Positions 3,700-20,406 of a stretch of DNA of 20,406 bases are shown one piece after another. Under the pieces are notes generated by a model that searched no databases, was not told where the DNA came from, and saw only the letters and a list, made by a program, of their open reading frames with translations. The translations under genes were made by a program, and so were the position numbers. This DNA comes from a virus. The DNA lies in the IMG/VR virus record IMGVR_UViG_3300010354_000878, positions 1 through 20,406 of that record; one strand, given 5' to 3'. The stretch's first letter is position 1. Each line of letters opens with the position of its first letter.

Positions 3700-4083
3700 A
3701 TGCAACAGCGTGCCGGATTACTATTTCTCGCCAAATCTACTAGTCGAATACTCTTGATTCATCAGGATCAAAAATGGACTATTCCAACTTTTATAAGAGA
3801 AAAGTCTGTACTTGAGGACGCAGAAATTTTAATGTCTAAATTTGAAAAAGGTAAAATTTTACCGATAGAGTTGTATCTTAGTACAGACAGGGGTTTTGAA
3901 TATGGTACATATGTTTGTCTTGTAGAAACGGAATTTCTAAGTCAGGCTGTTAAAAGTTTAGCATGGTGTGATCTTGATGAATTACCAAAAAATCTACACG
4001 GCGGGCTCAAGCAAACTTTACATAGCAATATTATTAGATCAAAATTGGAAACTGTACTTCAATTAGCCAATTCTTTCAAATGA
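3700..4083 (+). CDS. degenerate Nudix-fold protein
   Basis: A 127-aa protein that looks like a Nudix-fold domain without a usable Nudix box. Seen: an opening strand AGLLFLAKSTSRILLIHQDQ followed by KWTIPTFIREKS, where active enzymes have W-x-x-P-G-G; and a C-terminal LAWCDLDELPKNLHGGL, the W-x-D-x-x-x-L-P-x-x-L-H-x-G ending seen in many phage Nudix proteins. The catalytic REXXEEXGX helix is missing: the matching place reads EDAEILMSKFEKG. Hydrolysis of a nucleoside diphosphate derivative is therefore doubtful, and a binding or structural role is possible. The start ATG lies 8 bases after the gp15 stop. The only purine-rich site (AAAGG at 3694-3698) is unusually close to it, so expression may depend on read-through from gp15. 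Confidence 0.6.
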   Translation: MQQRAGLLFLAKSTSRILLIHQDQKWTIPTFIREKSVLEDAEILMSKFEKGKILPIELYLSTDRGFEYGTYVCLVETEFLSQAVKSLAWCDLDELPKNLHGGLKQTLHSNIIRSKLETVLQLANSFK

Positions 4084-4127: not shown

Positions 4128-6568
<2,441 letters not shown>

Positions 6569-6656: not shown

Positions 6657-6664
6657 AATAAATA
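6657..6664 (+). promoter_or_regulatory. putative T4-type late promoter of the enzyme operon
   Basis: AATAAATA matches seven of eight bases of the T4 late promoter TATAAATA, which is read by a phage sigma-like factor (gp55) in T4-like phages. It lies 29 bases upstream of the first start codon of the 15-gene run, leaving room for a short leader and the AGGAG ribosome site. It is the best-placed match I found outside coding sequence. Late expression would fit proteins that modify virion parts or the dying cell. Confidence 0.5.
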
Positions 6665-6693: not shown

Positions 6694-7068
6694 ATGAGCA
6701 CAACAAGAATAGTAAACGGAGTTGAATATGTAATTCCTCCTGGAACAGAACACGTTTGGACACCTCCCGAACAAGTTAAAGTAACACCCCCAGAAACAAA
6801 TATTCCTATTCCTACTCTAATTGATAATCTTAGAGTACATAAACTAGTAAGACAAAACGATTCAGAAAAAGTTGAAGCACTAATTGTAAAGCTAGAAACT
6901 ATTTGGCAAAAATTTAACAACAAAACAATTAATTCTACCCAGTTAAGTACTGAGTTAGGAAAATTTAGAACAGAAACGTTAAGTTCTATGGACGGCTACG
7001 ACGACATTACTGTTCAAATTTTTGAAGATGTATTAGTTAGGATGATGGCGGTGAGCTCTAAAGTATGA
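6694..7068 (+). CDS. unknown leader protein of the halogenase operon
   Basis: I do not recognise this 124-aa protein. Its first 45 residues are Pro/Thr/Val-rich and probably extended (VIPPGTEHVWTPPEQVKVTP), followed by two or three predicted helices (VEALIVKLETIWQKFNN, then LSTELGKFRTETLSSM and IFEDVLVRMMAVSS). There is no signal peptide or membrane segment. It has the best ribosome site of the operon and its stop overlaps the first halogenase start as ATGA, so the two are translated together. That makes a partner, adaptor or scaffold role for the enzymes plausible, but nothing in the sequence proves it. Confidence 0.85.
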   Translation: MSTTRIVNGVEYVIPPGTEHVWTPPEQVKVTPPETNIPIPTLIDNLRVHKLVRQNDSEKVEALIVKLETIWQKFNNKTINSTQLSTELGKFRTETLSSMDGYDDITVQIFEDVLVRMMAVSSKV

Positions 7069-8663
7069 TTAAACCTTTAAATTCGATCGTTATTGCCGGT
7101 GGTGGCAGTTCTGGATGGATGACGGCTGCTGCATTAATAAAGGCCTTTCCTGATAAACAAATATATTGTATAGAATCTCCCGACGTTCCTATAATTGGAG
7201 TTGGGGAGAGTACATTAGGCGGTATTAACGATTACTGTAAATTTTTAGAAATTAATGAAAAAGATTTCATGACATTTACAGATGCAAGTTATAAGATGAG
7301 CATTAAATTTACAGATTTTTATGAAAAAGACGGAGGAGCATTTCATTATCCGTTTGGAAGACCTTTCACAGCAGGTACAAAAAATGGAATGAATGATTGG
7401 TTGGTGAAAAAAGCATTGTATCCCGAAACACCAGTTGAGGATTATGTTCATTGTTTTTTTCCTGCGGCCGCACTTTTTGAAAAAAATAAGTTTTCATTAA
7501 ACAAGTATGGTCTTTTTGATAACTACGATCCAGATAATGATGTGGCATATCACTTTGATGCAACAAAATTTGGAGCATGGCTAAGGGATCGCTATGCAGT
7601 TCCTAGAGGTGTTACACACATTAAGGCCACTGTGGTAGATGTAAAAGTTAATGACAATGGTATTGAAAAATTAATTCTTAATACAGGAGAAGAAGTAACA
7701 GCTGATCTTTTTATTGATTGTACTGGCTTTAAGAGTTTATTATTAGAAGGCGCCCTCAATGAACCTTTTATTCCTTATGATCATATGCTGCCTAATAATA
7801 GGGCATGGGCTACTCAGATTCCTTATAAAGACAAAGAAAAAGAGCTTGAACCATTTACGAATTCTACAGCTTTAGGTAATGGTTGGGTGTGGAATATACC
7901 TAGTTGGAAAAGATTAGGCACTGGCTATGTTTATAGCGATAAGTTTATCACTCCCGAAGAAGCTAAGGAAGAATTTAAACAACATCTAATGTCTAATAAG
8001 ATGGTATGTCCTAGGACTAGAGAAGAAGTTGATTCATACATTTTCAAAGATATTCCAATTAAAGTTGGCATTCATGAAAGAACATTTGTTAAAAATTGTG
8101 TAGCTATAGGTCTAGCAGCAGCCTTTATTGAACCTTTAGAATCAAACGGGCTTTATACTGTACACGAATTTCTTTTTAAATTAATTAAAGTTCTACAAAG
8201 ACCAGCAGTTACTCAATGGGATAAAGACGTTTATAATGCAGCGACATTTGGCATGTGGCGAAATTTCGCTGAATTTGTAGCTCTACATTATGCATTAAGT
8301 ATACGTAACGATACTGAATATTGGAAAGCTAATGCTAATAGAGTTTATGCCCCGGGATTACCTAAACTTGAACCTAATACATCAGTTGGCTTTTACCAAC
8401 TACAAAACAGTAAGATGTTTGAAGGGCATTATGCAAGCGAAATTGCAGGAATAAATTGGATAAGTGTTGGTATGAATTATTTTGTGCTTGATAAAATTTC
8501 TACAACAATAAGACAAAATTTTGACCATAGAAATTATAAATTAGAATTTGATCCAATATTTGCAATGTTTGAAGAAAGAAAAGCACGTTGGTCAGAGTTT
8601 GCAAGTTCTCAACCTTCACTATTTGAATATCTAGCGAAAAATATACATAAGGATGAAGATTAA
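7065..8663 (+). CDS. flavin-dependent halogenase 1 (tryptophan halogenase family)
   Basis: A 532-aa FADH2-dependent halogenase. Family members make hypohalous acid from O2, reduced flavin and halide, and pass it through a tunnel to the substrate. Seen: FAD-binding GGGSSGW at 12-18, GVGEST at 45-50, the halogenation lysine at Lys77 (SYKMSIKF, equivalent to PrnA Lys79), the diagnostic WxWxIP motif at 274-279 (GWVWNIPSWKRLGTGYVYS), and FIEPLESNG with Glu359-Ser360 in the position of PrnA Glu346-Ser347. All catalytic residues are present, so it should be active if supplied with FADH2. No flavin reductase is in the window, so the host must supply one or it is encoded elsewhere. A phage member of this family, VirX1 of cyanophage Syn10, has been characterised as a halogenase with a preference for iodide. 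Free tryptophan is not assured as the substrate. Confidence 0.93.
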   Translation: MIKPLNSIVIAGGGSSGWMTAAALIKAFPDKQIYCIESPDVPIIGVGESTLGGINDYCKFLEINEKDFMTFTDASYKMSIKFTDFYEKDGGAFHYPFGRPFTAGTKNGMNDWLVKKALYPETPVEDYVHCFFPAAALFEKNKFSLNKYGLFDNYDPDNDVAYHFDATKFGAWLRDRYAVPRGVTHIKATVVDVKVNDNGIEKLILNTGEEVTADLFIDCTGFKSLLLEGALNEPFIPYDHMLPNNRAWATQIPYKDKEKELEPFTNSTALGNGWVWNIPSWKRLGTGYVYSDKFITPEEAKEEFKQHLMSNKMVCPRTREEVDSYIFKDIPIKVGIHERTFVKNCVAIGLAAAFIEPLESNGLYTVHEFLFKLIKVLQRPAVTQWDKDVYNAATFGMWRNFAEFVALHYALSIRNDTEYWKANANRVYAPGLPKLEPNTSVGFYQLQNSKMFEGHYASEIAGINWISVGMNYFVLDKISTTIRQNFDHRNYKLEFDPIFAMFEERKARWSEFASSQPSLFEYLAKNIHKDED

Positions 8664-8665
8664 CT

Positions 8666-9295
8666 ATGTTTATTAATAATTTATTTTTTGGAGAATTACA
8701 GCCAAGTGCTACTGTAGGGGGCTGTATAGACATTTTTGAAAATGCATGGCCGGATCCAGATTTTACTATTCAACGAATTGAAATGGCATGTGCAGATAAT
8801 AATTCTGGTATAGGTTGGGGTAGAGCTACAACAGTTGGGCAAGAACACAGGCAAACGGCTAGAACTAATTTAGCTTTAGGTATAACATACGGAGCTGAAG
8901 GCGTATCTAATCAAACTATGATGGATGTACATAATCAAATGTATTTCTTGTTGTTAGCTGCAACTGTACCATATGCGGACAGATATCAAATAGCGGAACC
9001 AATGTTCCACGAACAATATCAGGCTCTTAAGTACAGACCGGGTGAACAATATAAAGTTCATTATGACGGGGGAACAGGATCTGGTAGAGCTTTAAGTGCA
9101 GTAATTTATCTAAACGACAATTACACTGGCGGGGAGATTGAATTTCCAAACTTTAAAGTAAAAATAAAACCAGAAAAAGGAATGCTAATTTTGTTTCCAT
9201 CAAATTATGCTTACAGACATATTGCACATCCAGTATTAGAAGGAACAAAATATTCATTAGTTACATGGATTCACGATAGACCGTTGAATAGTTAA
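8666..9295 (+). CDS. prolyl-4-hydroxylase-like 2OG-Fe(II) oxygenase
   Basis: A 209-aa protein of the P4Hc/PiuC-like branch of the 2OG-Fe(II) oxygenases. After a 115-residue helical N-terminal half it shows the core: QALKYRPGEQYKVHYDGGTG with His132 and Asp134 as iron ligands, SAVIYLNDNYTGGEIEFPNF, KPEKGMLILFPSN, then RHIAHPVLEGTKYSLVTW with His185 as third ligand and Lys195 as the 2-oxoglutarate anchor. The Lys and the HxxxPVxxGxKY pattern are typical of prolyl hydroxylases and set it apart from the Arg-anchored members of this operon. It starts 2 bases after halogenase 1. A peptidyl-proline substrate is a fair guess from the subfamily, and the nearby fibre proteins are rich in X-Pro-Gly; this is inference. 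Confidence 0.9.
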   Translation: MFINNLFFGELQPSATVGGCIDIFENAWPDPDFTIQRIEMACADNNSGIGWGRATTVGQEHRQTARTNLALGITYGAEGVSNQTMMDVHNQMYFLLLAATVPYADRYQIAEPMFHEQYQALKYRPGEQYKVHYDGGTGSGRALSAVIYLNDNYTGGEIEFPNFKVKIKPEKGMLILFPSNYAYRHIAHPVLEGTKYSLVTWIHDRPLNS

Positions 9296-9299
9296 TAAT

Positions 9300-9950
9300 A
9301 TGAGTGATAATCAAAAAACTTTTGAAGACAAGAAATACGTCTTGATTAAAAATGCCGTAGATTCAAAAATTATTGATTTAATTTCTACATACGCATTACT
9401 AGACGAGAAAAATAATTTAACTTTAGAGAAAGGAAAACATCCTCAAATACATAATTCGCATAGTCAGTACGCCGATTGTTTAATGGATTCGATGCTTTTA
9501 GAAATGCAACAACTGATGGAAGCAAATACCGGTTTAAAATTGTATCCTACTTATTCATACTATAGAGTATATCGCCCAGGTGCAATACTAGAAAAGCACA
9601 AAGACAGACCTAGTTGTGAAATATCCACTACTATCACGCTCAAATTTAATTATTTAGAAGCAGATTATAAATGGCCAATATACATAGAAGGTGCAGAATG
9701 TGCTATGGAAACTGGTGATTTAGTAATATACAGAGGTTGCGAAGTTGAACACTGGAGAGAAGAATTTATTGCGCCCAAAGGATCATATCATATACAAGTT
9801 TTTTTACATTATGTAGACGCTAATGGACCCTATGCTGATTACAAATACGATAGACGACCTTCAATAGGTTTTAATAAAGAACGGAATTTAGACAGAATAA
9901 TTTCTGAAACCTATGTTCCAAACAAACATTATATAATTTTTTCACCGTGA
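9300..9950 (+). CDS. 2OG-Fe(II) oxygenase-like protein, HKD type
   Basis: A 216-aa protein with a probable double-stranded beta-helix core. RVYRPGAILEKHKDRPSCEI supplies His100 and Asp102 as an HxD pair; GDLVIYRGCEVEHWRE supplies His151. The following strand, YHIQVFLHYVDANGPYADY, has no obvious Arg or Lys at the usual 2-oxoglutarate position, so cosubstrate binding may differ. The combination of WPIYIEGAE, YRGCEVEHWRE and HYVDANGP belongs to a family I recall in marine bacteria and phages as putative 2OG-Fe(II) oxygenases. It starts 4 bases after the previous stop and its stop overlaps the next start (GTGA). Substrate unknown. Confidence 0.8.
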   Translation: MSDNQKTFEDKKYVLIKNAVDSKIIDLISTYALLDEKNNLTLEKGKHPQIHNSHSQYADCLMDSMLLEMQQLMEANTGLKLYPTYSYYRVYRPGAILEKHKDRPSCEISTTITLKFNYLEADYKWPIYIEGAECAMETGDLVIYRGCEVEHWREEFIAPKGSYHIQVFLHYVDANGPYADYKYDRRPSIGFNKERNLDRIISETYVPNKHYIIFSP

Positions 9951-10501
9951 ATATCGAAGTTTTTGATAATTTGTTAGATCAGAAAGAACAAGATCATATA
10001 GAAAATTTTCTAAGAGATCCAAAATTCCCTTGGTTTTTATCTGTTGGGGTTAATCATTATACAGTAGATAAAGAAACTTATGACAATAACAAAAGTGATT
10101 ATAGGGATGAATGCATATTATTAACACATACTTTTTATCTAAATTCATCAAGAAATTCTGACAATTATCAATTATCTGATTTTATTCTAAATAGATTTCT
10201 GAACAGAACAAACATAAATTTTACAAATTTATTTAGAACTAAGGCAAATTTACAACTGCCGTACTATACAGACAAACTTCACACTACTCCTCATATTGAT
10301 AATAATAACGACCATAAAGTTTTAATTTATTATGCTAATAATTGTGACGGCGATACATTTTTCTTAGATTCACAACATAATATAATAAATCAAATTAATC
10401 CAATTAAAGGTAGATTTATCCTGTTTGATGGCAAAATTCTACATGCCGCTGGCTTCAGTAAGAGTCAGATGAGAATAAATGTAAATTTTAATTTTATATG
10501 A
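9947..10501 (+). CDS. 2OG-Fe(II) oxygenase, phage DGDT group (copy 2)
   Basis: A 184-aa paralogue of the products at 5993, 15315 and 15904. Predicted iron ligands are His116 and Asp118 (TPHIDNNNDHK) and His166 (KILHAAGF), with Arg176 (QMRINVNFNF) as the 2-oxoglutarate anchor; the shared strand reads IYYANNCDGDTFFLD. The start is GTG at 9947, overlapping the preceding stop as GTGA; it gives the family N-terminus NIEVFDNLLDQKEQDHI, and no in-frame ATG is better placed. Its end overlaps the next start as ATGA. Compared with the other copies its C-terminal sheet is shorter, and the residue after the third histidine is Ala instead of Ser. Confidence 0.86.
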   Translation: MNIEVFDNLLDQKEQDHIENFLRDPKFPWFLSVGVNHYTVDKETYDNNKSDYRDECILLTHTFYLNSSRNSDNYQLSDFILNRFLNRTNINFTNLFRTKANLQLPYYTDKLHTTPHIDNNNDHKVLIYYANNCDGDTFFLDSQHNIINQINPIKGRFILFDGKILHAAGFSKSQMRINVNFNFI

Positions 10502-11091
10502 TCCGTGCCTACTTAGAAAACGGCATAGCGGTTTACGATAATGTGATCGATCAAAACGCTTGCAATGATATAATCAAGTACTTTGAATCTGTTAGAAATT
10601 TAAATTTAGTTTTTAATCAAGAATCATATGCATCTGGGCCGTCGCACGTTAATCGTAAAGATCAAAGTGTTTTTATGTTAACTCCTAATGTATTAACATT
10701 AGATAAAACTCAACCTATTTTTAACAGTTTTCTTGAAGGCTTTTGGCAAGCATATGAAGATTATTCAAAAGAATTTAGTGTATTACAGACCGCAGGAAAA
10801 CACGGATTTTATCAAATACGCATTCAAAAAACCGAACCAGGCGGAGGATTTCATAATTGGCATTTTGAAAACTATGATGCTATAACATGTACGAGAGTAG
10901 TGACTTGGATGTTTTATCTCAACGAAGTAGATCATGGCGGAGAAACTGAATTTCTTTATTTGCATCAAAGAATAGTACCTAAAGCTGGTCGATTAGTTAT
11001 TTGGCCGGCAAGTTATTTGCATACTCACCGTGGTAATCCGCCGTTAAGTGGATCCAAATATATTATTACTAGTTGGTTGAGTTTTTTTTAA
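10498..11091 (+). CDS. 2OG-Fe(II) oxygenase with HxE metal motif
   Basis: A 197-aa member of the prolyl-hydroxylase-like (P4Hc) group. Seen in order: YQIRIQKTEPGGGFHNWHFE, where His122 and Glu124 form an HxE in place of the usual HxD; VVTWMFYLNEVDHGGETEFL; PKAGRLVIWPASYLHTHRG with His177 as the likely third ligand; and GNPPLSGSKYIITSW with Lys187 as the 2-oxoglutarate anchor. The WHxE variant is, as I recall, conserved in related phage and marine bacterial proteins, so it is probably a real subfamily feature and not damage. It overlaps the previous gene by ATGA and its stop directly abuts the ATG of the next. The substrate is unknown. Confidence 0.87.
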   Translation: MIRAYLENGIAVYDNVIDQNACNDIIKYFESVRNLNLVFNQESYASGPSHVNRKDQSVFMLTPNVLTLDKTQPIFNSFLEGFWQAYEDYSKEFSVLQTAGKHGFYQIRIQKTEPGGGFHNWHFENYDAITCTRVVTWMFYLNEVDHGGETEFLYLHQRIVPKAGRLVIWPASYLHTHRGNPPLSGSKYIITSWLSFF

Positions 11092-11667
11092 ATGCACATT
11101 GATCATTTTTTTCCAACAGCAATTTATTATGAACAGCTAGAACAGGTTGCATCAGAGATACTGCCTGTAGTCAAACAACATTTAGATGCAAAAGAAGAAC
11201 TAACTTATCATTGGGGTTATAAAACAACTTTTAAAGTTGAATTTGGTTTAGAAAAATTTAAAGAATTTGATCAATTTACCAATTTAATTGTTAATAAAGC
11301 TAAAGTTTTTTTAGACAAACAAGGTTATGATGTTAGTAATGCTGAATTTACAGTTCAAATTTTTGCTAGTGATATGACTGTAAACGATTCACACGGAATT
11401 CATACACACCCCAATGCTATAATTTCAGGAGTATTTTACTTGGATGTGGATGAAAACTCTGCCCCTATAGTTTTTTATGATCCAAGACCTTTTAGAAAGT
11501 TCTTAGCTTTACCAAGAAGCCAAGAGACTATAGCATCATACGAAAAAGTTATGATTATGCCCTTCAATGGGTTGCTATTGTTATGGGAATCCTGGTTAGA
11601 GCACGAGGTTCCTAAAAATAAATCAACCAAAAGAACTACATTAGTTTTTAATTTAGGTAGAAAATGA
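11092..11667 (+). CDS. TIGR02466-like putative 2OG-Fe(II) oxygenase (copy 1)
   Basis: A 191-aa protein resembling the TIGR02466 family, annotated as putative 2OG-Fe(II) oxygenases. It opens with the typical FFPTAIYYEQL and has HGIHTHPNAIISGVFYLDVD, then FYDPRPFRKF, a strand GLLLLWESWLEHEV, and KRTTLVFNLG. The likely metal ligands are His104, His106 and His171, so an HxH replaces the usual HxD; Arg181 is a candidate 2-oxoglutarate anchor. It is closest in this window to the product at 17668, which shares the FYDPR...R.FL segment. Its end overlaps halogenase 2 as ATGA. Function beyond the fold is unknown. Confidence 0.85.
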   Translation: MHIDHFFPTAIYYEQLEQVASEILPVVKQHLDAKEELTYHWGYKTTFKVEFGLEKFKEFDQFTNLIVNKAKVFLDKQGYDVSNAEFTVQIFASDMTVNDSHGIHTHPNAIISGVFYLDVDENSAPIVFYDPRPFRKFLALPRSQETIASYEKVMIMPFNGLLLLWESWLEHEVPKNKSTKRTTLVFNLGRK

Positions 11668-13088
11668 AAATTGTTATTTTAGGTGGTGGAACCGCGGGAT
11701 GGTTAGCTGCATATTATATTAGTGCCGCCCAGCCTGGAATACATGACATTACCGTAATTGAATCATCTAAAATTGGAATAATTGGAGCCGGAGAAGGTGC
11801 CACAGGACTTTTGACTAATGTGTTGTCGGGGCAATTTTTTCCTAAAAAAATTGATCTTTCTGAATTTATGAATTTTTGTGATGCAACAAATAAAATTGGT
11901 ATTAAGTTTGTTGACTGGAGTAAAGACGGGGGATCATTCTTTTCTCCTCTAGATGGATCCAATACCGCCATTAGTACCAACGATATAATTTTTAAATATG
12001 TTCTTTCCAAATTTGGTAACAAAAAAATACATTTGGCATCTAGATTAGGTGTTGATTACCATACTGGCAAAAATTATGAAGTAATTGACGCTTTACACTT
12101 TAATGCTCATAAGGTAGGACAATTTTTTAAAAACAGTTGTATAACATTAGGTGTAAAATTTTACGATACTATAGTACACAACATACAACAAGATAAAGAA
12201 ACAGGCGATATTACTAATCTTATTATTGATGATGGTGTATTAATTGGTGGAGACTTCTTTATAGATTGCAGCGGATTCAATAGAGTTTTAATGAATAAAC
12301 TTGATGTTAATTGGATCTCTTATAAAAAATCCTTGCCGTTAAATTCTGCAATTCCGTTCTTATTAGATTATCAACCAAATGATTATATAGAACCTTGTAC
12401 TACTGCAACAGCTTTATCAAGTGGTTGGATGTGGGATATTCCTTTAAAAAATCGAAGAGGATGTGGTTATGTTTTTAACGATCAATTTATTACGGCAGAT
12501 GAGGCAAAAAAAGAATTAGAAAAAAAATTAAATCGTCCTATTACCCCAATTAAAGTAATTAAATTTGATCCCGGAAGATCTGAAGTGTTATGGAAAAATA
12601 ATGTATTAGGTTTAGGGTTAGCTTCTAGCTTTGTTGAACCGTTGCAGGCTACTTCAATCCATACAACTCTAGCACAAATAATTATTTTTGTGAACGATTT
12701 TTTAGTAAAAGAGAAAAATTATGTAAACACGTTCGAAAACAAAAAATCTTATAATAAAAGAATGTGTGAAATGTATGACATTACTTTAGATTTTATTTCT
12801 TTACATTATCAGGGCGGTAGACAAGATACTGAATTTTGGCGCTGGGTGAAAGAAGATAATATTATTAGTCCGTACGTAAAAGATCTAATAGAGAGATCAA
12901 AATACAAAGTTCTAGGACATCACGAAATAGGAATAAAATTTGGGGCGCCGGCTGTTGGTTTATGGAATTGGACAATGGCCGGATTAAATTTGATTGATCC
13001 GGAAACAGCAACCGAAGATTTGATAGCCACTGAATTATATAACAAAGCAGAAGAAATGTTTATAAATTTTCTAAGCCATCATAGGTAA
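11664..13088 (+). CDS. flavin-dependent halogenase 2, catalytic Glu replaced by Gln
   Basis: A 474-aa member of the tryptophan halogenase family, shorter than halogenases 1 and 3. FAD-binding motifs are intact (ILGGGTAGWLAAYYIS at the N-terminus, GAGEGATG at 41-48). The halogenation lysine Lys77 is present (NKIGIKFVDW), and WxWxIP is present at 255-260 (GWMWDIPLKNRRGCGYVF). The odd point is FVEPLQATSIH: Gln328, codon CAG at 12645-12647, stands where the two other copies and the family have the catalytic Glu (PrnA Glu346). The rest of the gene is open, so this is not general decay. It may be slow, have altered chemistry, or act as a flavin-binding partner for another copy. It overlaps the previous gene by ATGA and is followed 5 bases later by the SGNH gene. 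Confidence 0.92.
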   Translation: MKIVILGGGTAGWLAAYYISAAQPGIHDITVIESSKIGIIGAGEGATGLLTNVLSGQFFPKKIDLSEFMNFCDATNKIGIKFVDWSKDGGSFFSPLDGSNTAISTNDIIFKYVLSKFGNKKIHLASRLGVDYHTGKNYEVIDALHFNAHKVGQFFKNSCITLGVKFYDTIVHNIQQDKETGDITNLIIDDGVLIGGDFFIDCSGFNRVLMNKLDVNWISYKKSLPLNSAIPFLLDYQPNDYIEPCTTATALSSGWMWDIPLKNRRGCGYVFNDQFITADEAKKELEKKLNRPITPIKVIKFDPGRSEVLWKNNVLGLGLASSFVEPLQATSIHTTLAQIIIFVNDFLVKEKNYVNTFENKKSYNKRMCEMYDITLDFISLHYQGGRQDTEFWRWVKEDNIISPYVKDLIERSKYKVLGHHEIGIKFGAPAVGLWNWTMAGLNLIDPETATEDLIATELYNKAEEMFINFLSHHR

Positions 13089-13093
13089 CACAT

Positions 13094-13768
13094 ATGAATA
13101 ATATTGCGGTGTTTGGCGATAGTACAGCTGATCCAAATCCTAAATTTAATCACAGCTGGATAGAAATTTTATCAAGAAAATTCAAAATAACGAATTATGC
13201 GCAAGCTGGCAGTAGCCTTCTTTTTAGCTACGAACAGTTATTAATTCATGGACATAAATATTCTAAAATAATTTTTTTTGTAGCACCCGTAGGTCGATTG
13301 TACGTTCCAAATTGTGAATTGACGCAACATTTTGTAAATCAAAATACTGCAAATTTGTTTAAGCCTGTTAACGATTTTAAACAAAAAAATATTGTAGATG
13401 CCGTTGAAAAATATTTCAATTATTTGTGGGTATGGGAAAAAGAAATTTTAATACAAAGATCCATTGTTGATTCAATACAAAAAAACTTCCCACAGGCATT
13501 GTTAATTCCGGTAACAAAAGATAGTATATACAATTTTCAAGGGTTATGTATGCACGATATCAGCGTTATAGATTACAATTATCACGATGTTAATTATTAC
13601 ACTCCAGACTTTGGAAGAACATGTCATATGAACAAGGAAAATAATTTAATTTTTTCACAAATTATTGAAAAATGGATTACGGATAAAAGTTTTCATATAG
13701 ATATTGATCAATTTAAATACCCTGTTGAAACAAAAGAAGATCTTTTTTATGAAAAATATCAATCATAA
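13094..13768 (+). CDS. SGNH/GDSL-type hydrolase-like protein
   Basis: A 224-aa protein with SGNH-hydrolase blocks; members of this fold are esterases, lipases or carbohydrate deacetylases. Block I is AVFGDSTADPN with Ser10 as nucleophile; block II is NYAQAGSS with Gly39; block III is FFVAPVGRLY, which lacks the usual GxND Asn; block V is PDFGRTCHMNKENN, with His178 as the likely catalytic base. The replaced block III means oxyanion-hole geometry may differ. No signal peptide is visible, so it acts inside the cell or on the particle. It lies between two halogenases; a role in removing an ester or acetyl group from the same substrate is a guess. Its last 20 bases overlap halogenase 3. Confidence 0.78.
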   Translation: MNNIAVFGDSTADPNPKFNHSWIEILSRKFKITNYAQAGSSLLFSYEQLLIHGHKYSKIIFFVAPVGRLYVPNCELTQHFVNQNTANLFKPVNDFKQKNIVDAVEKYFNYLWVWEKEILIQRSIVDSIQKNFPQALLIPVTKDSIYNFQGLCMHDISVIDYNYHDVNYYTPDFGRTCHMNKENNLIFSQIIEKWITDKSFHIDIDQFKYPVETKEDLFYEKYQS

Positions 13769-15314
13769 TTTTAAATTTTTGGTACTTGGAGGCGGTTCTG
13801 CAGGTTGGATTTCTGCACTTTTTATTAGAACTAATTTTCCGGACGCTCAAATTACCGTAATACAAAGTAAAGAAATAGGAATATTAGGTGCCGGCGAAGG
13901 CACAACACCTCATATATATGATTTTTTAGATGAAATTGATGTACCTGTTTCTGATATCGTAAAGAATTGTAGAGCTACAATCAAAAATGGGATTAAATTT
14001 TCAAATTGGAATGGTGATCGATCTTATTATTATCATCCCTTTAGAGATAATTTTGATTTAGATCATACGCTTATTAGTGAACTACCGCATACTAAATATC
14101 CTCTAATGGACCTAGAAGTTATCGCCAACGGGGGATCTATAGATCAGATAGATTTTAACTCTTTTGCAAGCGACAAAAACTGTGTAAGGTACGTTCCGGA
14201 TAGTTCTAGTCTTTACAAAGATCTTGATCCAATATTACATTTTACCAGATTAGGTAGGATGGCTTTACACTTTGATGCCAACTTACTTGCTGAGTATTTA
14301 GAAAAAATTGGGCGGCAAAGAAATATCTCTGTAATTGATACTGTAATAGATGAAATTATACAAGATAATACAGGAAATGTAATAGGTTGTAGGACAAAAG
14401 AAAATAAACTTGTAACTTGCGACTTTTTATTTGATTGTTCTGGTTTTAATAGATTAGTTATAGGTAAGAAATTTAAAACCAATTGGAAAAGTTATAAACC
14501 GTACTTGCCTGCTAAAAGGGCAATGCCTTTTTTTATAACTAATCAGTCAACCATAATACCCCCATATACTGAATCTACAGCAATGAAATGGGGCTGGATG
14601 TGGAAAATTCCTGTACAAGGCAGATATGGTTGCGGATATGTTTACGATAGCGACAGGATATCTGACGATGAAGCTAAGGCTGAATTAGATAAAGAAATTG
14701 GTTTAGAAGTTGAAGTTCCGCGATTAATAAATTTTGAACCTGGTAGATATGAAAAAATTTATGAAAAAAATTGTATCGCTATTGGTTTAAGTTCTGGATT
14801 TATAGAACCTTTAGAAGCTACGTCAATATGGACTTCTCTGATGATGTTAAATGCTTGGATCGAGAATATTGGAGCTATCACGCACGACGATCAAATGGCC
14901 AGAGATCGTGTTAACCAGCGCCATACCGATATGAATGATAATACCCTCGGTTTTGTATATTTTCATTATATAACAAAAAGAAATGACACAGATTTTTGGA
15001 GAAACTTTACCACAGATAATAAAATTCCAGAATCTCTACATAAATTAATTGAAGAATCTAAGTATACTATTCCTAGTTACGATATGTTTTCAAACATCGG
15101 TTTAGACTGGGCTGCAAAAAGTTTTTTGGCATGCGGTAACGGACAAAAGTTTTTTGATCCTCTCCATGCTAGAAAATTATTTGATAGCTTTTACCACGGC
15201 AAAAGAAAACATGATTATGATTTAATGAAGTACAGATATACTAAGAATGTAAATCTTAATTTGTCTACACTTATTGACCATTATTCTTTTTTGCAATATT
15301 TGAGAGAAAATTAA
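13749..15314 (+). CDS. flavin-dependent halogenase 3
   Basis: A 521-aa complete halogenase. Motifs: LVLGGGSAGWISALFI for FAD at about 11-26, LGAGEGTT at 46-53, Lys79 (IKNGIKFSNW), WxWxIP at 283-288 (GWMWKIPVQGRYGCGYVYD), and FIEPLEATSIWTSL with Glu356 in the catalytic position. The EPLEATS version is like that of BrvH-type and other halogenases not restricted to free tryptophan. Halogenases 2 and 3 share GRYE/GRSE-type sequence before EPL and the RGCGYVF/YGCGYVY strand, so they are closer to each other than to halogenase 1. I set the start at ATG 13749, overlapping the SGNH gene by 20 bases; an ATG 15 codons upstream (13704) would add a tail with no family counterpart. The stop directly abuts the next ATG. 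Confidence 0.93.
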   Translation: MKNINHNFKFLVLGGGSAGWISALFIRTNFPDAQITVIQSKEIGILGAGEGTTPHIYDFLDEIDVPVSDIVKNCRATIKNGIKFSNWNGDRSYYYHPFRDNFDLDHTLISELPHTKYPLMDLEVIANGGSIDQIDFNSFASDKNCVRYVPDSSSLYKDLDPILHFTRLGRMALHFDANLLAEYLEKIGRQRNISVIDTVIDEIIQDNTGNVIGCRTKENKLVTCDFLFDCSGFNRLVIGKKFKTNWKSYKPYLPAKRAMPFFITNQSTIIPPYTESTAMKWGWMWKIPVQGRYGCGYVYDSDRISDDEAKAELDKEIGLEVEVPRLINFEPGRYEKIYEKNCIAIGLSSGFIEPLEATSIWTSLMMLNAWIENIGAITHDDQMARDRVNQRHTDMNDNTLGFVYFHYITKRNDTDFWRNFTTDNKIPESLHKLIEESKYTIPSYDMFSNIGLDWAAKSFLACGNGQKFFDPLHARKLFDSFYHGKRKHDYDLMKYRYTKNVNLNLSTLIDHYSFLQYLREN

Positions 15315-15902
15315 ATGTTTATCAAAGTACCAAATTGTCTTCCAGAAAAATATACAGCTGATTTAGAGGAAGTAGTTTTTGAAATGCCTATGTATTATAG
15401 TGCAAATACTTCATACGCACCAGAAGATAAAAATTTTGATTTTTGGAATCAACAATTAGAACAATCTAATATTATCGACAATGGACAGTTTACTCATGCA
15501 ATCTTTCACAAAGGCGAAATTTTTTCAAAATATTATGGTTTAATATATCCGCTATTATATCTATATGCTGACAAAGCAGGAGTTACAGTAAAAAACATTG
15601 TTAGAATAAAAGTAAATTTGTTATTAAGAGACAGAACATTTGAACATAAAAACTATAATTTTCCTCATTCAGATCGAGATGGCAAATATGTGTTTTTATA
15701 TTATATAAATGATGCAGACGGAGATACTGTTTTGTTTAACGAATTTGATAATATGAAAACTATTCCAGATAAATTCACTACAATGGAACGCATATCACCT
15801 CAACGAGGCAGCGGAGTGTTTTTTGAAAGTATGCGATTTCATGCAAGTTGCAATCCGTCTATGTCTCAACATCGCTATGTGATTAATTTTAATTTTGACT
15901 AA
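15315..15902 (+). CDS. 2OG-Fe(II) oxygenase, phage DGDT group (copy 3)
   Basis: A 195-aa paralogue of the 5993, 9947 and 15904 products. Predicted ligands: His118 and Asp120 (FPHSDRDGKY), His176 (RFHASCNP), and Arg187 for 2-oxoglutarate (HRYVINFNFD). The shared central strand is YYINDADGDTVLFNEFD. The N-terminus FIKVPNCLPEKYTADLEEVV resembles the cap helices of the other copies. The ATG abuts the halogenase 3 stop with no gap, and a single base separates its stop from the next gene, so translation is probably coupled through the run. Substrate unknown. Confidence 0.88.
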   Translation: MFIKVPNCLPEKYTADLEEVVFEMPMYYSANTSYAPEDKNFDFWNQQLEQSNIIDNGQFTHAIFHKGEIFSKYYGLIYPLLYLYADKAGVTVKNIVRIKVNLLLRDRTFEHKNYNFPHSDRDGKYVFLYYINDADGDTVLFNEFDNMKTIPDKFTTMERISPQRGSGVFFESMRFHASCNPSMSQHRYVINFNFD

Positions 15903-15903
15903 T

Positions 15904-16491
15904 ATGATTTACGATGATTTAATTTCCAAAGAACAGCATGAAAAATTGGTTAATTTTTTGACTTGGAGAGATTTTCCTTGGTACTATCAACCTAATATTG
16001 CTTATAAGTATGACCCTAATAATCATGATCCAAATGCCATTGAAAGTTTTGGACTCACCCATGCGGTGTGGGACATCGAGCATGGAAAGGTATCAGAAGC
16101 ATTGTCTTATGTTGAACCTATAGTAGACAATTTTCAAAAGAAGTCTGGTATTAAAATAAACAACTTTTTAAGAATAAAAATTAATTTGCAAACTCCTATT
16201 CCAAATAATCAATCTCATATGTATAATGGTGCGCATGTTGATAGGTATCATGAACATAATGTGTTAATTTATTATCCATTAGATAGTGACGGAGATACTT
16301 TTATCTTTAACGAAGTTTTTGACAATAATATAGTTCAAACGCATCCAACTCATGTAAAACCAACAATCAAAGAAAGAATTACTCCTAAAGCAAATAGATT
16401 GCTTATGTTAGATACTGGATTACGATATCATTCAAGTAGTAATCCAATAAACTATAGTCAGCGTTATTCTGTCAACATAAATTTTACCTAA
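15904..16491 (+). CDS. 2OG-Fe(II) oxygenase, phage DGDT group (copy 4)
   Basis: A 195-aa protein adjacent to its paralogue at 15315. Predicted ligands: His111 and Asp113 (NGAHVDRYHEH), His176 (RYHSSSNP), and Arg187 (QRYSVNINF). The shared strand reads YYPLDSDGDTFIFNEVFD. Of the four copies its third-ligand segment is most like that of the minus-strand copy (RYHSSSTP). The start is taken at ATG 15904, one base after the previous stop; an in-frame TTG at 15895 would lie inside the upstream gene. Its stop overlaps the next start as TAATG. Confidence 0.88.
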   Translation: MIYDDLISKEQHEKLVNFLTWRDFPWYYQPNIAYKYDPNNHDPNAIESFGLTHAVWDIEHGKVSEALSYVEPIVDNFQKKSGIKINNFLRIKINLQTPIPNNQSHMYNGAHVDRYHEHNVLIYYPLDSDGDTFIFNEVFDNNIVQTHPTHVKPTIKERITPKANRLLMLDTGLRYHSSSNPINYSQRYSVNINFT

Positions 16492-17078
16492 TGAATACTT
16501 TAATAGCAAGCAAGTGGTTTGGAAATCCAATTTGGGAAATTGAACTTACTGATATTGATAACGATTCTATTATAGAATATGCATATTCGTTAGAAAAAAA
16601 TAATGATGTTAAATCGAACAGAGGCGGATGGCAATTTTACGACCTAAAAAATCCTACATTGCCTTACTTACAGCTTATTGATGTATGCAATCAAGCTGTA
16701 ATGGAGGCACATCTTTCTATGGGATTAAAAGAAGAATATCCGTCTTATATAAACGGCTCTTGGATAAACATAAATCCACCTCAAAGCTTTAATGTTAAAC
16801 ACCTGCATCCTAGAAGTTTGTTTAGCGGCGTATATTATGCTAAAGTTCCTCAGGGAGACTGTGGGGATATTACTTTTCATAGAGATCCATTACCGTTAAG
16901 CTATATTCCTAGCTATATTGTGCAAGATTGGAATGATTTAACTAGCGGGACTGCTACTTATAAAATAAAAACAGGAACACTTTTAATATTTCCTAGTTGG
17001 CTAGAGCATTCAGTTAGTCCAAATTTTACAAATGAAGATCGAATTTCAATAGCATTCAACACTAATTACAATTTTTAA
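16491..17078 (+). CDS. TIGR02466-like putative 2OG-Fe(II) oxygenase (copy 2)
   Basis: A 195-aa protein of the same HxH group as the product at 11092. It has WFGNPIWEIEL near the N-terminus, SWININPPQSFNVKHLHPRS with His104 and His106, then LFSGVYYAKVPQGDCGDITF, a long loop, TGTLLIFPSWLEHSV with His173, and EDRISIAFN with Arg184. It is plainly paralogous to the next gene across its whole length (shared SWININ, SGVYY.KVP.GDCGDI, PSYIV/PPYIV, LLIFP.WLEHSV, EDR.SI.FN), which points to tandem duplication. It overlaps the previous gene as TAATG and its stop abuts the next ATG. Whether it binds iron through three histidines is a prediction. Confidence 0.86.
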   Translation: MNTLIASKWFGNPIWEIELTDIDNDSIIEYAYSLEKNNDVKSNRGGWQFYDLKNPTLPYLQLIDVCNQAVMEAHLSMGLKEEYPSYINGSWININPPQSFNVKHLHPRSLFSGVYYAKVPQGDCGDITFHRDPLPLSYIPSYIVQDWNDLTSGTATYKIKTGTLLIFPSWLEHSVSPNFTNEDRISIAFNTNYNF

Positions 17079-17675
17079 ATGCTGATGAATAGATTTAAAA
17101 TGGATCAATGGTTTTCTAATCCTATTTGGGAAACAACTCTCAATTTAGATAACCTAGAACTTATTAACTTTGCCTATAGCTCAACACTACTTGAAAACAA
17201 ACACGAAAAAAATTTAAGCCAAGGAGGCCATCAATACTTTAATATAGAAAATCCTCCTACTAATTATACTCTGTTGTTGAAAAAGATAAACGAATTCTTA
17301 TTACAGATCCAAAAATCTGTAGGATTTAAAATTAATTATAGATCTTTCGTTAAAGAATCTTGGATCAATATTAATATTCCTAACAGCTATAATATGAAAC
17401 ATTTTCATCATAGAAATATGTTTAGTGGTGTGTACTATGTTAAAGTTCCAAATGGCGACTGTGGAGACATTATTTTTTATAATAACAATTTAATGACAAA
17501 TTATCTACCTCCTTATATTGTTAAAGAATACAATAACCTTAATAGTTCTACTGTATCATACAAACCCAAAGAAGGAATGTTATTAATATTTCCTGGATGG
17601 TTAGAGCATTCAGTCACAACAAATTTAACTGATGAGGATAGAGTGTCAATTAGTTTTAATGCACATTATGAATAA
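17079..17675 (+). CDS. TIGR02466-like putative 2OG-Fe(II) oxygenase (copy 3)
   Basis: A 198-aa tandem duplicate of the preceding gene. WFSNPIWETTL opens the domain; ESWININIPNSYNMKHFHHRN supplies His108 and His110; MFSGVYYVKVPNGDCGDIIF, GMLLIFPGWLEHSV (His177) and EDRVSISFNAHY (Arg188) follow. The first ATG at 17079 directly follows the previous stop; in-frame ATGs at 17085 and 17100 are alternatives, and the last would begin the protein close to the conserved WF motif as in the sister copy. The two copies have clearly diverged in loops, so the duplication is not recent. Its end overlaps the next gene by 8 bases. Confidence 0.85.
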   Translation: MLMNRFKMDQWFSNPIWETTLNLDNLELINFAYSSTLLENKHEKNLSQGGHQYFNIENPPTNYTLLLKKINEFLLQIQKSVGFKINYRSFVKESWININIPNSYNMKHFHHRNMFSGVYYVKVPNGDCGDIIFYNNNLMTNYLPPYIVKEYNNLNSSTVSYKPKEGMLLIFPGWLEHSVTTNLTDEDRVSISFNAHYE

Positions 17676-18252
17676 CAATTTAACTACAGAAATTTGGTTC
17701 CCAACTTTTATTTCTTATTCTTACAATAAAGAAATTTTACCAAATATAAAAAAAATATTTGAAAGCATTAACTGGGATTCATTAAAGGATGATAGATACC
17801 CTAATGGATATACAACTTTTTACGGCGGTCAAGATCTTAATGAACAACTTAAAAATTCAATGCCAGAATTTTGTGACTTTGTATTAGAAAGTTGTTATGA
17901 AATATTAAATAGACAACAAATTGCAATAGGCAATAAAAAACTAATAGTTACTACGTTTTGGCTCTCGCGAATGCTAGAGAACGGTCATCATTCTAAGCAT
18001 TTGCACACACATTCTTTTTATTCTGGTACATATTATGTGAATGCCGATAATGAAAGTGCTAAAATAAAGTTTTATGACCCAAGATTATATAGGCAATTTT
18101 TACCTAATGTAAATTCAAACGAAATTGTTGCTTATACACCAGAAGAAGGTAAATTACTTCTTTGGGATTCTTATTTAGAGCACGAAGTTGAAATGAATTT
18201 TTCAACCAATCCAAGAGATGCTATAAGTTTTAACATTGATATAATATGTTAA
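17668..18252 (+). CDS. TIGR02466-like putative 2OG-Fe(II) oxygenase (copy 4), last gene of operon
   Basis: A 194-aa protein, fourth of the HxH group. TEIWFPTFISYSY opens it; HHSKHLHTHSFYSGTYYVNA places His111 and His113 at the conserved spacing before SG; KIKFYDPRLYRQFLP, GKLLLWDSYLEHEV (His172) and NPRDAISFNI (Arg183) follow. It resembles the 11092 product more than its immediate neighbours, so the family was not built only by copying the adjacent gene. I chose ATG 17668, which overlaps the previous stop by 8 bases; upstream starts would give an N-terminus read from the wrong frame of its neighbour. It ends 3 bases from the convergent minus-strand gene, with no strong terminator between them. 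Confidence 0.86.
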   Translation: MNNNLTTEIWFPTFISYSYNKEILPNIKKIFESINWDSLKDDRYPNGYTTFYGGQDLNEQLKNSMPEFCDFVLESCYEILNRQQIAIGNKKLIVTTFWLSRMLENGHHSKHLHTHSFYSGTYYVNADNESAKIKFYDPRLYRQFLPNVNSNEIVAYTPEEGKLLLWDSYLEHEVEMNFSTNPRDAISFNIDIIC

Positions 18253-18255
18253 AAT

Positions 18256-18684
18256 TTAATAATTTTTAATTGCTTCTCTACTGTAAGCTGAATTACCGTT
18301 ATCTATATTACCGTAATTCTTATCATTAAATTTATCCATAAACCTAAAATGAGAATTTTTTGGATACCAAATTTTTAGTTCATCTAATCGTTCTATAACT
18401 TGTGGTTGAACAAATCGACCGTAAAATGCTTCTAAATCTTGTCCCCAGTTGTGCCTAATAATATAATATTCAGCATAAGGACACCATGCAGCATAACAAG
18501 CAACACCACCGCCTCGTTCTATAATAACTTCCCAAATTTCCACATCTTCCATTTGCATAACACGGTCATAACTCCAATCTGGGCTTGGCGGTAAAATTAT
18601 TTTATCGCTGTCCATGTTGTTATCGTTCCAAACTTCGTCACCGAAGTCTTTAAAAATGTTATGTGTAGTCTTAAACTGAGGCAT
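18256..18684 (-). CDS. conserved phage protein of unknown function next to fibre genes
   Basis: This 142-aa protein has no function I can name. It starts MPQFKTTHNIFKDFGDEVWN, has a Pro/Trp segment LPPSPDWSYDRVMQMEDVEI, then WEVIIERGGGVACYAAWCPY, AEYYIIRHNW and a helical region QPQVIERLDELKIW. I recall similar small proteins in marine T4-like phages, encoded near structural genes. The two Cys (63 and 68) flank aromatic residues but form no known metal motif. It is translationally coupled to the glycine-rich protein upstream (stop and start overlap as TAATG), so it may be a fibre-associated or fibre-assembly protein; that is inference from position only. Confidence 0.82.
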   Translation of the reverse strand: MPQFKTTHNIFKDFGDEVWNDNNMDSDKIILPPSPDWSYDRVMQMEDVEIWEVIIERGGGVACYAAWCPYAEYYIIRHNWGQDLEAFYGRFVQPQVIERLDELKIWYPKNSHFRFMDKFNDKNYGNIDNGNSAYSREAIKNY

Positions 18685-19901
18685 TAAATGTCTCTGTATC
18701 TAATTACAACTATTCCTGGGCCACCGGGACCCGACACATCCGGAGAACCGTGTACGCCACCACCACCACCACCACCGGTATTTGTGGCACCGGTTCCTCC
18801 AGGAGTGGCTCCTTCTGGACTTCCGGGATGTATTCCCGAACGACCGGCACCAAAAGCAGTTGCCATTGGTCCTGGTCCCCATGCTCCGTTTAATCCGTAG
18901 TGTCCAGGATTTCCCGGACCGTGTGTGCCACCGCCACCACCGCCAGCATATCTAGTAACTGTGCCTGTAATTTGGCTGGCTAAGCCTGCACCGCCTGTGC
19001 CTAAGGTATTGGAATTTGCAATAGGTTTGCCGGACGAACCTGCTCCGCCACCACCACCACCTGCGTGAATAACGGTGTTGCCAGCTGCCCAATCAAAGCC
19101 GCCACCGTGAGCTCCGTGACCGCCGGGGTGTCCTTGTCCTACAATACCGCTGCCGTAGCCGTTGCCTTCCATTGATATTTGATCTCGACCTACGCCATTA
19201 CTGTTACCCCAAGGATGTCCTATAGCCACCATTGGCCCTTGATGCCAATGATTATTTGGCGAAGCTCCGTGACCGGTAGGAGCTTGAGGCCAGAAGCCTC
19301 CTTCTGCGTTATTATGACCTCCCGGACCACCACCACCGGATCCGCCATTGCCAAATCTAGCACCCGATGTAGCACCCTGGCTGTAGGGTAATCCTCTACC
19401 GCCGCCTACAGCCACGTAAGTATTTGCAACTGATGGGCCTGTAATACTCGATGGGTTTCCTGGAGCTGCGATACTGTTGTGGCTCGGCTCACCGCCTCCA
19501 CCTGATCCAACGTTTACTGTATATGTGTTTGCAGGTAATTGAACTTGTTGTTCATAGACAAATCCGCCGGCGCCGCCCCCGCCGCCAATACCACCGCCTC
19601 CGCCACCTCCACCAACCATTAAAACTTCAACGACACCTTGATATGCCATTGTGAAACTAGTTGATCCGCTAGTGAAAGTATGTATTCTATAACCGCCTGA
19701 TGTTGTTACACTTCCGCCTGTAGCAGACATTGATCCTTCAAATAATGTCCATGTAGCACCATCGTAAAGTTCGTTTCTGCCTGTGGTAGTATTGTATCTC
19801 AACATCCCAGCAACAGGAGTACCTGGTCGCTCGGCAGTGGTGCCGTTGGGTAGGCGTATAAAACCCGTATCGTTAATAGTTAAATTACGTAATGTTGCCA
19901 T
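18684..19901 (-). CDS. glycine-rich tail-fibre-like protein 1
   Basis: A 405-aa likely virion protein. Residues 1-57 form a phage-fibre type N-terminal module (MATLRNLTINDTGFIRLPNG, then MLRYNTTTGRNELYDGATWT). A short strand region follows (GGYRIHTFTSGSTSFTMAYQ, then GVVEVLMV), which opens the glycine-rich domain known from many phage fibres. The remaining 300 residues are Gly runs broken by Asn, His, Pro and Trp (GHPGGHGAHGGGFDWAAGN, HAGGGGGGAGSSGKP). The end is GPGGPGIVVIRYRDI. Such proteins probably fold as polyglycine-II-like bundles at fibre tips and bind receptors. It contains many X-Pro-Gly triplets and several Trp in flexible context (FWPQ, HWHQ, HPWGN). It starts 2 bases after the stop of a paralogue and overlaps the small gene downstream. 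Plus-strand poly-Pro reading frames here are artefacts. Confidence 0.88.
   Translation of the reverse strand: MATLRNLTINDTGFIRLPNGTTAERPGTPVAGMLRYNTTTGRNELYDGATWTLFEGSMSATGGSVTTSGGYRIHTFTSGSTSFTMAYQGVVEVLMVGGGGGGGGIGGGGGAGGFVYEQQVQLPANTYTVNVGSGGGGEPSHNSIAAPGNPSSITGPSVANTYVAVGGGRGLPYSQGATSGARFGNGGSGGGGPGGHNNAEGGFWPQAPTGHGASPNNHWHQGPMVAIGHPWGNSNGVGRDQISMEGNGYGSGIVGQGHPGGHGAHGGGFDWAAGNTVIHAGGGGGGAGSSGKPIANSNTLGTGGAGLASQITGTVTRYAGGGGGGTHGPGNPGHYGLNGAWGPGPMATAFGAGRSGIHPGSPEGATPGGTGATNTGGGGGGGVHGSPDVSGPGGPGIVVIRYRDI
19564..19616. repeat. low-complexity GGN codon tract
   Basis: This is the densest of several runs of glycine codons in fibre-like protein 1 (seen on the plus strand as repeated CCN/GCC triplets). 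It encodes the first Gly run after the VEVLMV strand. Similar shorter runs occur at about 18757-18777, 18928-18948 and 19047-19061, and in the second fibre gene at about 19975-19998 and 20226-20247. Such tracts are prone to slippage and recombination between the two fibre genes. Confidence 0.65.
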
Positions 19902-19903
19902 GT

Positions 19904-20406
19904 TTATACCCTATATCTTACGACTACGATTCCTGGACCGCCTGTTCCTGAAGGATTTTCTCCGCCAGGATGGCCACCGCCACCGCCGCCACCGCCTCTA
20001 TTTGTTCCGCCTGGTGTGGCAAATATATTTCCTGAATCAGAACCGCCACGACCTTGATTATCTGGTGCGCCGCTTGGTGCTGGAGAGAATCCATATTGAT
20101 TGTGATGAGAGCCCCCGCCACCACCAAATGCATAATTTACTGCTACACCAGATATATTACTATCGATACCAAACCCGCCATTTCGTCTTGAATTATTAGA
20201 GTACGTACTTACGCCTCTAGATCCAGCGCCGCCACCGCCGCCACCTGCATGAGTAGCTCCGGATCCTTGACATCCAGGATTTGGATACCCAGGGCCGCCA
20301 CCGTGATGTCCATATCCGCCCGGATGGCCTTGACCTGCTATACCTGTACCGCCAGGGTGCTCGCCAGGTCTGCCAGTATAATCAGTCCCCGGACTTCCGG
20401 TACCGC
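19904..20406 (-). CDS. glycine-rich tail-fibre-like protein 2 (partial, N-terminus outside window)
   Basis: This open frame runs in from the right edge of the window and ends in TAA at 19904-19906; about 166 C-terminal residues are visible. I translated it by hand from the minus strand. It is Gly-rich throughout, with GIAGQGHPGGYGHHGGGPG, HAGGGGGGAGSRGV, FGGGGGSHHNQYGF, and the ending GGPGIVVVRYRV. That ending and the GQGHPGG and HAGGGGGGAGS segments match fibre-like protein 1, so the two are tandem paralogues with different central loops. It has many X-Pro-Gly triplets, one Cys and no Trp in the visible part. The missing start means the N-terminal module cannot be checked. Confidence 0.85.
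   Translation of the reverse strand, partial: GTGSPGTDYTGRPGEHPGGTGIAGQGHPGGYGHHGGGPGYPNPGCQGSGATHAGGGGGGAGSRGVSTYSNNSRRNGGFGIDSNISGVAVNYAFGGGGGSHHNQYGFSPAPSGAPDNQGRGGSDSGNIFATPGGTNRGGGGGGGGHPGGENPSGTGGPGIVVVRYRV

Follow-up and report, generated by a model that had tools for sequence, protein, structure and literature searches.

A viral island of halogenase and 2-oxoglutarate oxygenase genes linked to glycine-rich fibre-tip genes, with a possible role in protein tailoring

To our knowledge, the halogenases of phages and their abundant 2-oxoglutarate (2OG) oxygenases have been without a known natural substrate since such genes were first noted in marine cyanophages. The question is raised again by the IMG/VR virus record IMGVR_UViG_3300010354_000878, a 20,406-bp fragment (the window) from a virus of aquatic bacteria, in which fifteen plus-strand genes at positions 6694-18252 encode three halogenases, ten 2OG-oxygenase-type proteins and a probable SGNH hydrolase: what do these enzymes act upon, and do they form one system? 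Here, family profiles, structural models and comparison with related viral contigs and cultured phages were combined to address it. We report that the block keeps its order in relatives and adjoins genes for glycine-rich proteins of the fibre-tip kind. With a probability of roughly 0.5, we read it as an island that is expressed late, tailors proteins and is coupled to the glycine-rich tips of the phage's own tail fibres.

Gene content of the island

The fifteen genes are tightly packed, with 14 junctions spaced between -20 and +5 nucleotides (nt), and their open reading frames and coordinates match those of an earlier note that a model had made from the sequence. The three halogenases (FDH1-FDH3) and ten 2OG-oxygenase-type proteins (OG1-OG10) named in that note were recovered with Pfam and PHROG profiles and motifs (OG2 by PHROG and motif), as was the eleventh oxygenase that it had placed across the promoter:

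5993..6568, minus strand: eleventh 2OG oxygenase, divergent, kept in relatives (phrog_274 E 7e-40)
6657..6664, plus strand: T4-type late promoter-like site AATAAATA, 30 nt 5' of the first gene
6694..7068, plus strand: gene A, 124 amino acids, kept directly 5' of FDH1 in close relatives
7065..8663, plus strand: FDH1, flavin-dependent halogenase (PF04820 E 7e-102; best PDB match 6qgm, VirX1, E 2e-101)
8666..9295, plus strand: OG1, prolyl-4-hydroxylase-like 2OG oxygenase (PF13640 E 7e-17; best PDB match a prolyl 4-hydroxylase)
9300..9950, plus strand: OG2, 2OG-type protein of a family publicly named 'ferrochelatase' (phrog_2954 E 9e-49)
9947..10501, plus strand: OG3, 2OG oxygenase (phrog_274 E 9e-36; PF13640 under cut-off)
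10498..11091, plus strand: OG4, 2OG oxygenase (PF13640 E 1.5e-13)
11092..11667, plus strand: OG5, 2OG oxygenase (PF13759 E 2e-18)
11664..13088, plus strand: FDH2, halogenase of a second deep clade in the tree (PF04820 E 5e-87)
13094..13768, plus strand: probable SGNH/GDSL hydrolase (conserved blocks; model and Foldseek)
13749..15314, plus strand: FDH3, halogenase of a third deep clade in the tree (PF04820 E 1.5e-95)
15315..15902, plus strand: OG6, 2OG oxygenase (PF13640 above cut-off)
15895..16491, plus strand: OG7, 2OG oxygenase (phrog_274 E 3e-27; Pfam under cut-off)
16491..17078, plus strand: OG8, 2OG oxygenase (PF13759 E 2e-24)
17079..17675, plus strand: OG9, 2OG oxygenase (PF13759 E 2.5e-25)
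17668..18252, plus strand: OG10, 2OG oxygenase (PF13759 E 1e-20)

The GxGxxG, WxWxIP and catalytic-Lys motifs are complete in FDH1, FDH2 and FDH3, and all three are PF04820 flavin-dependent halogenases with predicted activity; the FxEPL(E/Q) motif ends in Gln in FDH2 and in Glu in FDH1 and FDH3. The three fall into three deep clades and therefore are not recent copies, so that a recent tandem duplication was rejected. Among solved structures, VirX1 of cyanophage Syn10 (PDB 6QGM) is nearest to FDH1 and shares its catalytic motifs; it was studied as a single iodide-preferring biocatalyst and has a large, open active site accepting bulky substrates, whereas the window holds three halogenases of three clades (PMC8407142). 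Neither a natural substrate nor a gene island is described for VirX1 in the open literature found; an FDH1 relative is reported from Syn10, and the phage syn9, close to Syn10, carries a similar fibre-side island.

Pfam cut-offs were passed by seven of the ten oxygenases (OG1, 4, 5, 6, 8, 9 and 10), while OG3 and OG7 gave sub-threshold Pfam matches and match PHROG families common to the other oxygenases. OG2, which has no Pfam match, was assigned from phrog_2954/3531, an invariant HxD...H...R pattern and a weak profile match to OG1. The HxD/E...H iron ligands are visible in OG1-4, OG6, OG7 and the divergent gene at 5993; the PF13759 proteins OG5, 8, 9 and 10 show no clear HxD and instead have His-rich HxH-type stretches and a distal His. 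For OG10, 17668 is a more probable start than the listed 17632, and the start candidates of OG7 are 15895 and 15904. The PHROG names 'DNA endonuclease V', 'ferrochelatase' and 'minor coat protein' found no Pfam support for these proteins. A ferrochelatase identity of OG2 is unsupported; its family, phrog_2954, seen in the window gene and in 156 phage records, carries the HxD...H...R pattern, like 2OG oxygenases. On these sequence patterns, the public names of phrog_2954 ('ferrochelatase') and phrog_274 ('DNA endonuclease V') look wrong.

The hydrolase named in the earlier note is best called a probable SGNH hydrolase, because it has no family match in Pfam or PHROG profiles and its top Foldseek match, to Escherichia coli TesA, reaches just E 4e-3 from a weak AlphaFold model (predicted local distance difference test score, pLDDT, 72). 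Its GDS and H178-x-N blocks are conserved across four relatives. Gene A had no match in the same profile searches.

The putative late promoter ahead of the block was borne out by the AATAAATA site and by four relatives, in which a perfect TATAAATA stands 12-13 nt 5' of the first gene of the corresponding unit. A TATAAATA-like site thus precedes a collinear run, as expected of a T4-type late unit, and ATAAATA is rare in the window (3 occurrences against 14 expected). From this arrangement, a single transcript of the block is plausible.

Conserved order, fusions and linkage to fibre-tip genes

Scanning IMG/VR with FDH1 turned up 80 loci, and the 46 of at least 12 kb (some near-duplicates) were counted. 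Of these 46, 21 combine two or more halogenases with four or more oxygenases, 41 have at least one oxygenase and 33 have a glycine-rich gene. FDH1, OG1, OG2 and OG3 are consecutive on one strand in 8 lineages (FDH1 differing by more than 5%), and the SGNH gene, FDH3 and OG6-OG9 come next in several relatives. In a 186-kb relative, three halogenases lie at 27.5-36.3 kb, three genes of the glycine-rich family PF21722 at 36.5-39.4 kb and the 2OG matches at 25.8-34.2 kb, bar one at 144.8 kb; 12 of these 13 matches fall within 15 kb, a concentration reached by none of 200,000 random placements. Two contigs encode a fusion of an N-terminal divergent PF04820 halogenase with a C-terminal OG2 domain (L014:10646-12622 and L016:7347-9272; 59% identity to each other); searches of viral contigs and of phage records, at the sensitivity applied, detected no third fusion. 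The fusion is our most direct evidence that halogenase and oxygenase act together.

The block recurs in relatives with kept order, and a system accounts for it better than scattered auxiliary genes would. The earlier note had proposed such a dedicated modification system, to be checked by a recurring block of at least two halogenases and four oxygenases, and this proposal is supported by the kept order, the co-localisation in the 186-kb relative and the two fusions. The label 'marine T4-like', which it used for phages with single genes of these kinds, is unsupported for the window, as is a cyanophage identity: psbA is absent from four related contigs (all of which may be fragments). The earlier note also overlooked the adjoining minus-strand genes, namely gene B and at least two glycine-rich proteins:

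18256..18684, minus strand: gene B, 142 amino acids, always beside glycine-rich genes in close relatives
18684..19901, minus strand: glycine-rich fibre-tip-like protein, candidate substrate (PF21722 E 1e-9)
19904..20404, minus strand: second glycine-rich protein, truncated at the edge of the contig (phrog_2295 E 1e-10; PF21722 under cut-off)

The protein at 18684..19901 matches PF21722 above the cut-off. Its AlphaFold model is weak (pLDDT 57) and its Foldseek E-values are 5e-3 and above, although every one of the 24 best matches is either a fibre or tail-tip protein of a phage or a glycine-rich domain of ALK/LTK, the Pam3 cyanophage fibre accounting for two of them; these fold matches, weak and consistent, agree with a glycine-rich tip of the Pam3 gp24 or S16 gp38 type. 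In Pam3, the fibre gp24, which has a chaperone gp25, has a glycine-rich, hypervariable receptor-binding tip whose GGGGxGG motifs and variable loops recall the PF21722 proteins of the window; unlike in the window, no tailoring enzymes are reported alongside it (PMC9608196). Neither gene B nor the glycine-rich protein yielded anything useful when compared by sequence with the PDB, and gene B has no family or PDB match; it is a possible fibre chaperone. Tandem glycine-rich fibre genes that alternate with genes of about 110-155 amino acids, which may be dedicated chaperones, were seen on contigs L081, L082, L051 and L053, and on the last two a halogenase stands beside the array.

The island adjoins PF21722 genes in the window clade and in 9 of the 13 cultured halogenase phages examined (S-RIM44, Sf-FP1, Sf-CH11, syn9, P-RSM6, S-CREM1, S-WAM1, S-SZBM1 and P-TIM40). 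The equivalents in cultured cyanophages match PF21722 above the cut-off and align to the C-termini of tail-fibre families. The order in the nine is fibre, glycine-rich gene or genes, usually a gene of about 130-220 amino acids, halogenase or halogenases and then a run of oxygenases; Sf-CH11 deviates, with two oxygenases 5' of the halogenase and a second glycine-rich gene 3'. In S-CREM1 a series of 2OG and JmjC genes comes after the halogenase. The syn9 island lies at 32-43 kb, after the fibre genes, whereas its gp13 is located at 99 kb. It is thus the fibre that stays as neighbour throughout, and the neck was rejected in this role.

The linkage was also followed in 85 stretches from contigs picked solely for gp13 or gp15. 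These contigs alternate between two states, one with fibre, glycine-rich gene, small gene, halogenase and oxygenases, and one with a fibre lacking the others, and phages with similar gp13 carry differing fibre-plus-enzyme cassettes, so that enzymes and fibre type appear to be exchanged together as cassettes. Comparing the 29 stretches that contain a halogenase with the 56 that do not, at least three oxygenases occur in 24 vs 10, OG2 in 23 vs 1 and glycine-rich genes in 18 vs 12, contrasts with p-values that relatedness and the truncation of contigs inflate. Among complete cultured genomes, 7 of 13 halogenase phages have OG2 vs 3 of 13 halogenase-free ones; the linkage is therefore frequent rather than obligate, and OG2 was rejected as an obligate halogenase partner. 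In the related cyanophage S-CAM3 (L270, 1-16000), which has no halogenase, the corresponding site beside the fibre is occupied by sugar-nucleotide and carbamoyltransferase genes.

Candidate substrate and competing explanations

The known bacterial and human JmjC_2 proteins hydroxylate Arg or His in ribosomal proteins, and the S-RIM44 island includes a JmjC_2 protein in addition to its 2OG oxygenases. A protein substrate is favoured because of this family, because OG1 is closest to prolyl 4-hydroxylases and because the VirX1 active site is open. Late in infection, at virion assembly, the 2OG oxygenases, several of them of the prolyl-hydroxylase type, would hydroxylate residues, and the three halogenases would add halogens to aromatic residues in the tip or in its loops, with reduced flavin supplied by the host (no flavin reductase gene was found). 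Phage GroEL and the small fibre-linked genes may assist folding, and the modifications could diversify or harden receptor binding, or tune folding. More tentatively than the coupling itself, we propose that the phage halogenates and hydroxylates its own receptor-binding tips with dedicated enzymes travelling with the fibre genes, which would make this the first system of enzymatic post-translational tailoring that serves host recognition in tailed phages. If so, phages would rely for host recognition on modifications that the protein sequence does not reveal, and any prediction of phage receptors from structure or sequence would miss part of the picture. The fibre linkage, exchange and fusion together give one testable target for phage halogenases and 2OG oxygenases.

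Several observations weigh against tip tailoring. The fibre genes of the window lie on the strand opposite to the island and therefore are not co-transcribed with it. Trp was not enriched in glycine-rich tips near halogenases in a composition test, and an apparent enrichment of His (2.4% vs 0.4%) was rejected as a pointer to the target residue: it vanished once halogenase-free cultured phages were added, and the tips of halogenase-free S-RIM2, MbCM1 and P-RSM1 (a family of 269-270 amino acids) carry 3.3-4.1% His, so that the excess is a family effect. Many halogenase-free phages also have glycine-rich tips, and among strictly complete fibre-to-gp13 intervals of distinct architecture such genes occur in 5 of 5 with a halogenase vs 10 of 18 others (p 0.12). 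In S-H35, MbCM6 and Syn1 the halogenases lie in replication or metabolic regions, away from fibres; the single, scattered genes that the earlier note named as refuting its proposal are seen only in a minority of phage halogenases, of which these three are examples.

Other explanations draw on parts of the same evidence. Lipids and O-acyl groups are common targets of SGNH folds, and the enzymes might modify the lipopolysaccharide, S-layer, lipids or proteins of the host to exclude superinfection or to take the host over, with the SGNH hydrolase as a deacylase; the sugar-nucleotide genes of S-CAM3 at the corresponding site would fit. The late promoter, the location with virion genes and the protein targets of known prolyl-hydroxylase-like and JmjC_2 enzymes speak against such host modification, which we consider unlikely. 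A small-molecule pathway, in which a halogenated metabolite (tryptophan- or pyrrolnitrin-like, a host pigment or a signal) is made or altered during infection, would accord with PrnA/RebH-type halogenases acting on free tryptophan or indoles, with the many small aromatics halogenated by VirX1 in vitro (PMC8407142) and with the antibiotic protection suggested in passages of two papers (PMC2984593, PMC9964418). It is rather unlikely: FDH1 is nearest to VirX1 and not to Trp halogenases, the exchange with fibre type is left unexplained, and Pfam and PHROG searches of the block found no synthase, non-ribosomal peptide synthetase or polyketide synthase, prenyltransferase or other scaffold-making gene, so that a secondary-metabolite gene cluster was rejected.

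A recombination-prone site beside variable fibres could also gather unrelated moron genes that share no function. The contents do differ greatly between relatives, and metaviromic islands are known in which Fe(II) oxygenases are listed in variable regions tagged 'host recognition', where, unlike for the window, no mechanism, halogenases or system is proposed (PMC3909814). We find chance accumulation quite improbable given that 8 lineages keep the order and that the same classes of enzyme recur on either side of a deep divergence, and given the halogenase-specific partner families and the halogenase-OG2 fusions. Lowering of 2-oxoglutarate to adjust the host nitrogen response, or DNA repair, has been put forward for cyanophages (PMC3037559); one oxygenase would suffice for metabolic control, which leaves ten diverse ones and the fibre-linked halogenases unexplained, and no DNA-repair AlkB family was matched in Pfam searches of the block proteins. 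This possibility is very improbable.

Ribosomally synthesized and post-translationally modified peptide (RiPP) clusters group several tailoring enzymes with the gene for the peptide or protein that they modify. The island resembles them in layout, its candidate substrate being a virion protein; membership in this class was rejected, as no precursor peptide, leader, RiPP recognition element or protease was seen.

Reports from 2010 onwards describe cyanophages with single prnA genes and with one to five 2OG genes each, and suggest nitrogen control, DNA repair or antibiotic protection as functions (PMC3037559, PMC2984593). According to the relevant passages of two later papers, S-SCSM1 carries 24 2OG genes and S-CREM1 ten plus prnA, taken as host reprogramming, and viral 2OG gene functions have not been investigated (PMC9602691, PMC9964418). 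These phages resemble the window in having many divergent PF13640/PF13759 oxygenases in one T4-like phage; the high oxygenase density stressed in the earlier note is thus not new as a count, while the linked system behind it gained support. Those passages mention no fibre linkage, kept order or fusions, and the window has three halogenases in one run. A linked halogenase-oxygenase-fibre system is not described in the open literature searched, which did not include the original VirX1 and Syn9 papers, and a search of the open literature for fibre hydroxylation or halogenation returned nothing. The components are thus of known kinds, the fibre-linked three-halogenase island is undescribed in the open literature found, and the tip-tailoring role, unproven, would be new.

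Flanking genes and further observations

The left part of the window is a T4-type neck module, with a gp13-like protein, a structural protein in the gp14 position and gp15, followed on the 3' side of gp15 by small conserved genes and then GroEL:

12..770, minus strand: gp13-like head-tail adaptor (phrog_211 E 3e-36)
2195..3691, plus strand: T4-gp15-like tail sheath stabiliser (PF16724 E 1.5e-24)
4409..6001, plus strand: phage GroEL (cpn60), between neck module and island (PF00118 E 9e-80)

One of the small genes (3700-4083), Nudix-like and without a Pfam match, stands 3' of gp15 in nearly all relatives. GroEL, possibly a folding aid for fibre proteins, was found only together with a halogenase (2 of 30 vs 0 of 61 neck-anchored contigs of at least 11.5 kb). 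A nucleotide search of a phage collection gave zero matches.

In the window's relatives the late unit begins with a phrog_7084 gene (for example L013:8884-9630 and, in S-RIM44, L005:16685-17392), which is missing from the window. The family is present in 5 of 13 cultured halogenase phages vs 0 of 13 halogenase-free ones, always adjoins a halogenase and is a candidate halogenase partner. In pelagiphages, 2OG genes co-occur with 'ferrochelatase' genes (PMC11561400) that, by their PHROG name, probably belong to the OG2 family. The Pelagibacter phage HTVC008M has a halogenase among neck and terminase genes, with oxygenases nearby. Halogenases in a second kind of position, close to sbcCD or to photosynthesis genes and distant from fibres, were observed in L295, L296 and L298, where they probably serve a different function.

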